From NCBI RefSeq assembly GCF_900113045.1, contig NZ_FONY01000028.1, positions 1 through 64,000 of the forward strand: 64,000 nt of DNA, written 5' to 3'. This DNA comes from Thermoflexibacter ruber (GTDB taxonomy: Bacteria; Bacteroidota; Bacteroidia; Cytophagales; Thermoflexibacteraceae). This document shows, piece by piece, positions 1 to 958 of this stretch. Each line of letters begins with the position of its first letter. Position 1 is the first letter of the stretch. A model generated the notes under the pieces. The model was given only the letters and a program-made list of their open reading frames with translations, was not told the DNA's origin and searched no databases. The translations under genes and the position numbers were made by a program.

Positions 1-93
1 GATTTTCTGCGTTTGCCAATGATTTTTTCCATATATTGCCATCGCAGCGGCGAACCGTTGAGAATCGCTTAGGGGAGTAAATTTTGCTCTCAT
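1..93 (-). pseudogene. Possible 5' fragment of an IS5-like transposase, frameshifted
   Basis: Reading leftwards from an ATG at 93, the first dozen codons give MRAKFTPLSDSQ, which resembles the start of IS5-type transposases of Bacteroidota (usually ...LSDSQW...). The next matching stretch (RWQYMEKIIGKRRK) is in a different frame, so a frameshift after codon 12 would join them. The rest of the gene, if any, is outside the window. The match is short and from memory, so the call is weak. Confidence 0.3.
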
Positions 94-146
94 TTGCTTA
101 CTGTTGTTGAGTGGTGCTTTCAAATGTATGATAATTTTATGTGTAA

Positions 147-237
147 AAAAATCCGTTTTCATCGGTACAATCTGTGTCATCAGTGTTCCCAAATAGAACA
201 CCGATAATACGGATTTGGCTGATAAACACAGATTTTT
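147..237. repeat. Large imperfect inverted repeat (42-bp arms, 7-bp loop)
   Basis: Arm 147-188 and the reverse complement of 196-237 agree at about 31 of 42 positions, around the loop 189-195. Each arm itself consists of two similar ~20-bp units of the form AATCYGTnTnATCRG, so the whole element is four degenerate copies of one unit in palindromic order. It lies between two insertion-sequence remnants and has no coding potential. It looks like a member of a dispersed intergenic repeat family or a MITE-like element. Confidence 0.75.
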
Positions 238-297
238 ATTCAACAAACACTTTTCTCATCAAATTGATAACAGGTAGATAAAATACCATCATACAAT

Positions 298-958
298 TGG
301 AATCATCGCCAAATTGCCCTACATGCTTTGCGCCATCAAGATAAATTACGTCTTTGGCAGCCTGCTTCTCATACTATTATCGCCTTAGAGCAACTTTATG
401 CACTTAGAGATAGATTACTTAAAAGCAAACAAACCTTAGAAGTTCCTCTGCAAGAGCAGAAAAATTTCATGGCTACTACTCACTATGCCCTCATGGAGAA
501 ATATGCCCTACCTGCTATACAAAGCATTGAAAAGCAAGTAGCTGAGGTAGAAGCACAAATCAAGCAAATTATCGAGGAGGATAATGATTTCAAAACCCTT
601 ATCCAATTATTGGATTCTATCCCTGGCATAGGAGAGAATATTGCTACACCAATCATTGTTAAAACGCAAGCTTTTACCCGCTTTACAGACCCTAAAAAGT
701 TTGCCTGTCATGCAGGTACTGCCCCATTTAGTTATACTTCTGGTACAAGTGTCAGGGCTAAAACCAAAGTATCTGTGTATGCTGATAAAGAACTTAAAAA
801 GTTATTGCACTTGGCTGCTATCTGTATTGTTAGAGGTAAAACCCTCTTAGCAAAATACTACCAACGTAAAATAGCTAAAAAAAGACAAAATGCTTGTTAT
901 TAATAATTTACGAAATAAACTTGTCCATATTATTTTTGCTATTGTTAAAAAAACATGA
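298..958 (+). pseudogene. IS110-family transposase remnant
   Basis: The frame from about 298 to 903 carries the C-terminal half of an IS110/IS116/IS902 transposase: a coiled-coil-like middle (about 420-590), the helix-hairpin-helix-like LLDSIPGIGE segment (about 612-640) and the conserved FACHAGTAPF...SGTSVR block (about 700-760). The N-terminal DEDD nuclease domain is missing. The frame stops at 903, but the normal family ending (MLVINNLRNKLVHIIFAIVK) continues in another frame from about 888 to the TGA at 956-958, so the tail is frameshifted. It cannot encode an active transposase. Confidence 0.8.

Follow-up and report, generated by a model that had tools for sequence, protein, structure and literature searches.

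The window, a 64,000-nucleotide stretch of the Thermoflexibacter ruber genome, contains at 110-310 a 201-bp repeat that is a non-autonomous IS1-family MITE, ordinary in kind and well supported. This assignment follows from its inverted-repeat ends, from the 8-bp duplications of its family and from an IS1 transposase in the same genome with matching ends. Very probably the centre of this MITE, 148-236, consists of inverted arms like those found on either side of GxxExxY genes, and the unit spread by the steps proposed below. Most likely an IS1-type MITE captured the palindrome as the cut ends of a GxxExxY element of an undescribed kind and then spread it; the window would then show that the ends of one selfish element can be spread by the transposase of another. 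The features of the region are as follows.

1-109, no strand: part of another repeat, 99% identical to C119:9718-9827; the homology stops at the MITE
110-310, forward strand: IS1-family MITE; 17 full copies in the genome, of 199-208 bp with one of 192 bp
110-132, forward strand: left terminal inverted repeat AGTGGTGCTTTCAAATGTATGAT, one mismatch to the consensus pattern; the first base is G in the other full copies
148-189, forward strand: arm 1, four ATCNGY units at 10-9-9 spacing with the GTTC end toward the centre; GxxExxY-arm profile E 1.8e-10, model positions 1-42 of 42
190-195, no strand: spacer between the GTTC/GAAC ends, 6 bases between the profile matches
196-236, reverse strand: arm 2, four ATCNGY units, inverted relative to arm 1; profile E 1.8e-9, model positions 1-41 of 42
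288-310, reverse strand: right terminal inverted repeat GGCGATGATTCCAATTGTATGAT, one mismatch to the consensus pattern
328-903, forward strand: truncated IS110-family transposase, 191 aa, profile positions 174-319 of 343

A hairpin inside an IS1-family MITE

The two halves of the hairpin (147-188 and 196-237) form Watson-Crick pairs at 31 of 42 positions, with four more G-T pairs, over a loop of 7 bases (189-195), which confirms the pairing described in an earlier note on this DNA. The hairpin ranks first among the 42-bp hairpins of the whole 64-kb window, and five block-shuffled windows gave maxima of 25-26. RNA folding of 140-245 yielded -30.8 kcal/mol (z = -4.48), a value as low being reached by 0 of 200 shuffles, in line with the earlier suggestion that a hairpin could form in RNA; the fold is stable on both strands (z = -4.48 and -3.98). 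Each arm is made of four ATCNGY units of 9-10 nucleotides (ATCCGTTTTC ATCGGTACA ATCTGTGTC ATCAGTG...). The earlier note had seen two copies of a 20-bp unit in each arm; the repeated make-up stands, but the size does not, because the arm matches itself better at offset 9 (15/33) than at offsets 18-20 (7-11 of 22-24), and four shorter units therefore fit better. The palindrome is the core of the larger repeat 110-310, which had not been delimited before.

Within the genome itself (5.5 Mb on 123 contigs), 21 matches exceed 110 bp in length. There are 17 full and two truncated copies of the MITE, about 19 in total, so the copies that the earlier note had expected elsewhere in the genome do exist, and the outcome it had allowed for, that of no second copy, did not occur. 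L025 and L026, which are cut at contig ends, were counted as duplicates because their flanks repeat those of L013 and L005, with which they are probably identical. When aligned, the copies share the stretch from GGTGGTGCTTTCAAATGTATGAT to ATCATACAATTGGAATCATCACC and diverge outside it, whilst in the two truncated copies (on C33 and C65) the sequence breaks off past the hairpin. At the ends stand imperfect 23-bp inverted repeats, and a pattern of them matches the genome 22 times on each strand, its backwards control giving 0. Target duplications of 8 bp are exact in five of the 17 full copies and carry one mismatch in two; among 272 cross-pairs of flanks none matched with one mismatch or fewer. 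At the other ten full copies no duplication with at most one mismatch is present, and the window copy is one of these, so that the duplication the earlier note had suggested looking for is found in the family but not at the window copy. No ORF of at least 60 aa lies wholly within 110-310, and none of the 17 full copies sits inside an ORF of at least 100 aa.

A candidate partner for these ends is present in the same genome, where an IS1-family transposase scores 139.8 bits with NF033558 (cut-off 100). The transposase on C58 matches the PF03400 and InsA zinc ribbon profiles, and the IS ends on C54, C58, C64 and C99 have the same inverted repeats as the MITE. There is no intact IS1 copy in the assembly; in the C58 copy a stop separates the two domain pieces. 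This copy, at the start of its contig (L060, 35-785), also contains a GCGGTTCGCCGCTGCGA-like stretch, found inverted at about window 42-57, which is possibly an insertion or an assembly join. Terminal repeats, duplications and a transposase with the same ends together turn what had been a guess of a MITE-like element into an assignment. A passage of PMC6382973 describes an IS1-family element, the ISAba3-like element in Tn6645, with 24-bp ends GGTGGTGTTTCAAAAAGTATGCTG and 8-bp duplications; the window MITE resembles it, as far as that passage goes, in its GGTGGTG... ends of about 23-24 bp and its 8-bp duplications, here together with a co-resident IS1 transposase. Unlike IS1-family MITEs that hold an internally deleted transposase gene, 110-310 holds the arms of another repeat family.

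The MITE was looked for outside this species and not found there in full form. Exact matches to the left end numbered 0 in genome_contigs and viral_contigs, blastn of the MITE against plasmids and phages gave 0 matches, and 58 relatives other than T. ruber held no full copy, the weaker matches in seven of them being fragments of arms or ends. Two IS1-type MITEs of 143 and 131 bp in a genome of the same genus, G002 (L128:901-1043 and L129:808-938), share the ends of the window MITE and have other G/C-rich hairpin interiors with 0 arm matches; the 8-bp duplication is exact in one (ATATTTAA) and agrees at 6 of 8 positions in the other. Since these same-ended elements lack the arms, the MITE does not need them.

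Arms around GxxExxY nuclease genes

A tandem array of arms on contig C55 of T. ruber surrounds a GxxExxY gene (PF13366 7e-38, TIGR04256 1e-36), and similar arrays lie around GxxExxY genes in three relatives (L157, L163 and L166). In L157 (genome G045) the gene within the long array is of a different GxxExxY subfamily, and the units include a repeated GACCTGCCCGTATCAGGCGGGTGTC hairpin. As a query we aligned five GxxExxY proteins, of which four come from arm-bearing loci, and took the best 80 loci in genome_contigs by protein sequence alone. In 75 of these 80 loci a double ATCNGY motif lies no more than 600 bp from the tblastn match, and 47 have it on both sides; near the gene there are 355 motifs in 93 kb, as against 102 in 329 kb farther out, the reversed motif occurring 0 times and once, respectively. 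Measured from the ORF, arms lie within 600 bp in 78/80 loci and on both sides in 61/80 (reversed-motif control 0). One of the 80, L177, on the same contig as L163, is itself a query locus, which leaves 77 of 79 loci independent of the queries.

The arrangement of the arms is regular. A clean order of inverted arm, gene and arm, with three or four units in each arm, was found in 29/80 loci with spans of 444-658 bp; in this gene-bearing order the GAAC/GTTC sequences stand at the outer ends. Neighbouring units mostly stand 9 or 10 bp apart (358 and 188 cases among the distances of at most 30 between successive units), and runs of units end at four, with 110 runs of four and none longer. In the 15 of 80 loci that have four perfect units on both sides, to which this comparison was confined, arms within one element are more alike than arms of different elements (0.62 against 0.43 over 18 variable columns, 0 of 10,000 permutations). 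Beyond the arms of the GxxExxY element in L218 lies another inverted repeat (CCGCTCGAGAAGGG), which continues them outward and gives the impression that the element had inserted into a hairpin.

The link to arms is limited to one GxxExxY subfamily. Loci picked by PF13366 score alone carry arms in 5/29 and 5/30 cases, and the second GxxExxY gene of T. ruber, on C73, has no arms. All six of the PF13366-picked proteins above 175 bits have arms and the other 53 include four cases, the profile that supplies these bit scores having been trained in part on the best 80 loci and one of 140 loci having no match to it. On a tree of 134 proteins (rows of at least 80 aa) the arm label changes seven times, compared with 39.5 when shuffled. 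Arm-bearing rows span nine named phyla and comprise many bacteria and some archaea, and outside Bacteroidota they are mostly MAGs.

In the GxxExxY protein itself, D66, K78, Q90 and Y94 are present in 77/77 proteins and E76 in 75/77, a set that we take to be the pattern of an intact RecB/Cas4-type nuclease. An AlphaFold model (pLDDT 91.4) has as its nearest solved structure 4ic1 (SSO0001), presumably a Cas4, with Foldseek E 3.4e-4 and TM 0.52-0.55; a sequence search of solved structures returned none for the GxxExxY protein, and PADLOC gave weak Cas4 matches (E 6e-4). The family is named yet unstudied as far as the open-licence literature found goes, a passage there using the name merely for a neighbouring gene. 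For such a family the constant arms offer a concrete DNA substrate to test.

To compare the window with these loci we built a profile from 69 arms of 41 GxxExxY loci outside the genus, leaving out the same-genus L177; its arms were picked by the pattern of four perfect units, and it therefore leans to regular arms. Over the 64-kb window the profile matches only the two window arms, along the full arm length, the next match having E = 6 and the best match in the reversed window E 0.33. The exact four-unit pattern is found at 151-185 in arm 1 and 199-233 in arm 2. What had first been marked out as a palindrome at 147-237 thus resolves, through the profile matches at 148-189 and 196-236, into exactly two GxxExxY-type arms. 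This is strong sequence evidence that the core of the MITE is of the same kind as the arms of GxxExxY loci. In contrast to those loci (TIGR04256/PF13366, PD-(D/E)XK), the window has no gene between its arms and their order is opposite; the repeat therefore carries GxxExxY-type arms but is no arm-bracketed element. The outer ends of the arms face each other, as at the junctions of neighbouring units in the C55 and L166 arrays.

Matches to the palindrome of about 45 bp occur at other places in the T. ruber genome. One of them is the C55 array, and others belong to a second dispersed element, which is older and about 235 bp long (L066-L070, L130-L146 and others). Its ends are TAGAGTTTTTACT... and ...GTAAAAACTCTA, it may have TA duplications, and its middle holds an arm pair made of the same ATCNGY units.

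Spread of the arms and competing explanations

In G002 the genes that flank the T. ruber GxxExxY cluster are 91 bp apart, as compared with about 811 bp in T. ruber, where the gene and arms lie between them. There is no arm at the 91-bp site (best profile E in that contig stretch 0.61), and the GxxExxY gene of G002 (85% aa identity) is on a different contig from this unoccupied site. In Flavobacterium a GxxExxY element lies between two genes in 9/22 genomes by a near full-length match, the query genome included, and in G154, G156 and G168 the matches to the two flanks are separated by about 101, 118 and 283 bp, compared with about 545 bp. These differences fit gain of the element as well as its loss. 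At GxxExxY elements no target duplication could be made out. Carriage by viruses or plasmids was rejected as a route of spread for GxxExxY, its relatives there being two in viral_contigs and eight plasmid records, all below 60% identity.

Arms also lie inside other MITEs. In G094, 18 of 20 fetched single-arm copies stand behind the same left end, TAGAGTTTTTTAAATGG, and one more is cut at a contig end. In G132 an arm pair lies inside the ends TTTGATAACGAC ... GTTATCAAA in 6 of 18 fetched stretches and is bare in two, five stretches without arm B having been set aside; in G143 longer flanks are common to most of 14 fetched arm copies. These three genomes were chosen for high arm copy number, which favours cases of arms in MITEs. 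More widely, 26 of the 148 genomes surveyed in the order contain the four-unit arm, and 73 of 395 sampled Bacteroidota genomes contain a stricter form of it, with backwards controls of 0 throughout. The arms may account for a class of dispersed palindromes in those 73 genomes.

We propose the following course for the window repeat. The arms would make up a small mobile unit together with a gene for GxxExxY (PF13366, Cas4/RecB-like PD-(D/E)XK), and the nuclease would act on the arms; we put the odds that these loci are mobile elements, and that the nuclease works in this way, at about even. Arm pairs without the gene lie scattered in genomes, where such units may have left them. One arm junction would then have come between IS1-type ends, and the IS1 transposase could have copied the 201-bp unit to about 19 places with 8-bp duplications. 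The ends, the duplications and the partner transposase are all observed; the copying by this enzyme is presumed from them. A broader reading, which might equally well prove right or wrong, is that one GxxExxY subfamily and its inverted four-unit arms make up a widely spread mobile element of about 450-660 bp in nine phyla, REP/RAYT-like with a Cas4-like nuclease, whose gene-less arm pairs are non-autonomous offspring repeatedly amplified by unrelated MITEs. We found no account in the open-licence literature of a link between GxxExxY genes and dispersed arm palindromes, and no spellings of the arm repeat there.

Alternatively, an ordinary DNA-binding protein of the host could bind the arms as an array of sites, the GxxExxY genes being merely neighbours. 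The idea comes from the spacing of the units, which at 9-10 bp places them about one helical turn apart, and it would suit the 7 of 26 genomes that have at least one arm match and no clear GxxExxY gene. We nevertheless consider it unlikely, because arms occur near the gene in 75/80 and 78/80 loci from nine phyla and form matched inverted pairs around it. Against it, too, a clear GxxExxY gene is present in 12 of 13 genomes with at least five arm matches, compared with 63 of 124 others (p = 0.003); for genomes with any arm match the link to the gene is weaker (19/26 against 56/111, p = 0.03). This comparison covered 137 genomes, with 11 of 91 left out and with G001 and G004 lying outside the 148-genome arm survey.

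Less probable still, and in our view improbable, is that the MITE keeps the hairpin because it serves as a terminator of transcription in both directions, or as an insulator, and stops read-through. Its strong fold on both strands and the T run that can be read after it on each strand would be expected of such a device. However, a terminator scan did not report the 147-237 hairpin, copies of the MITE lie between convergent genes in only 2 of the 14 cases with both neighbours resolved, and copy L024 has lost 10 bases of the hairpin. The same-ended MITEs of G002 likewise dispense with the arms, although their other G/C-rich interiors are compatible with a generic role for a hairpin.

Scarcely credible is a reading of the palindrome as a REP element that a RAYT (Y1 transposase) would mobilise: the sequence is palindromic, intergenic and dispersed, but it measures about 90 bp rather than 20-40, sits within an IS1-type unit with 8-bp duplications, and reads neither GTAG nor CGTC in 147-237, the tags that name two REP super-families in a passage of PMC3733652. 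From the 'REP-like' label of the earlier note the dispersed palindrome family survives, though one tied to GxxExxY genes and free of these tags. A likeness to REP/RAYT and BIME systems, as PMC2817692 and PMC3733652 present them, lies in dispersed non-coding palindromes related to the inverted repeats that flank a nuclease-type gene; the GxxExxY arms differ in flanking a gene for a Cas4-like nuclease instead of a Y1 transposase, in having four tandem units per arm and in lacking a tetranucleotide tag. The preferred reading, of GxxExxY-type arms captured by an IS1-type MITE, has a parallel in QMITE2 of Coxiella, which a passage of PMC10969869 describes as a MITE harbouring a palindrome of another repeat family. 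There the palindrome was a target of IS1111, whereas in the window family no insertion into the arms was seen.

Flanks of the window copy

The earlier note had placed the palindrome among insertion-sequence remnants, and the truncated IS110-family transposase does adjoin the MITE. A bridge-RNA role for this fragment was considered and dropped because the repeat unit ends at 310 and the sequence past that point differs among the copies elsewhere. Rfam returned a single sub-threshold match, to MIR821 (26.4 bits, gathering score 249), which was taken as chance. Further along, at 1009-1085, lies a separate 77-bp repeat, with copies 83-90% identical on C63, C52 and C69 and shorter ones elsewhere.
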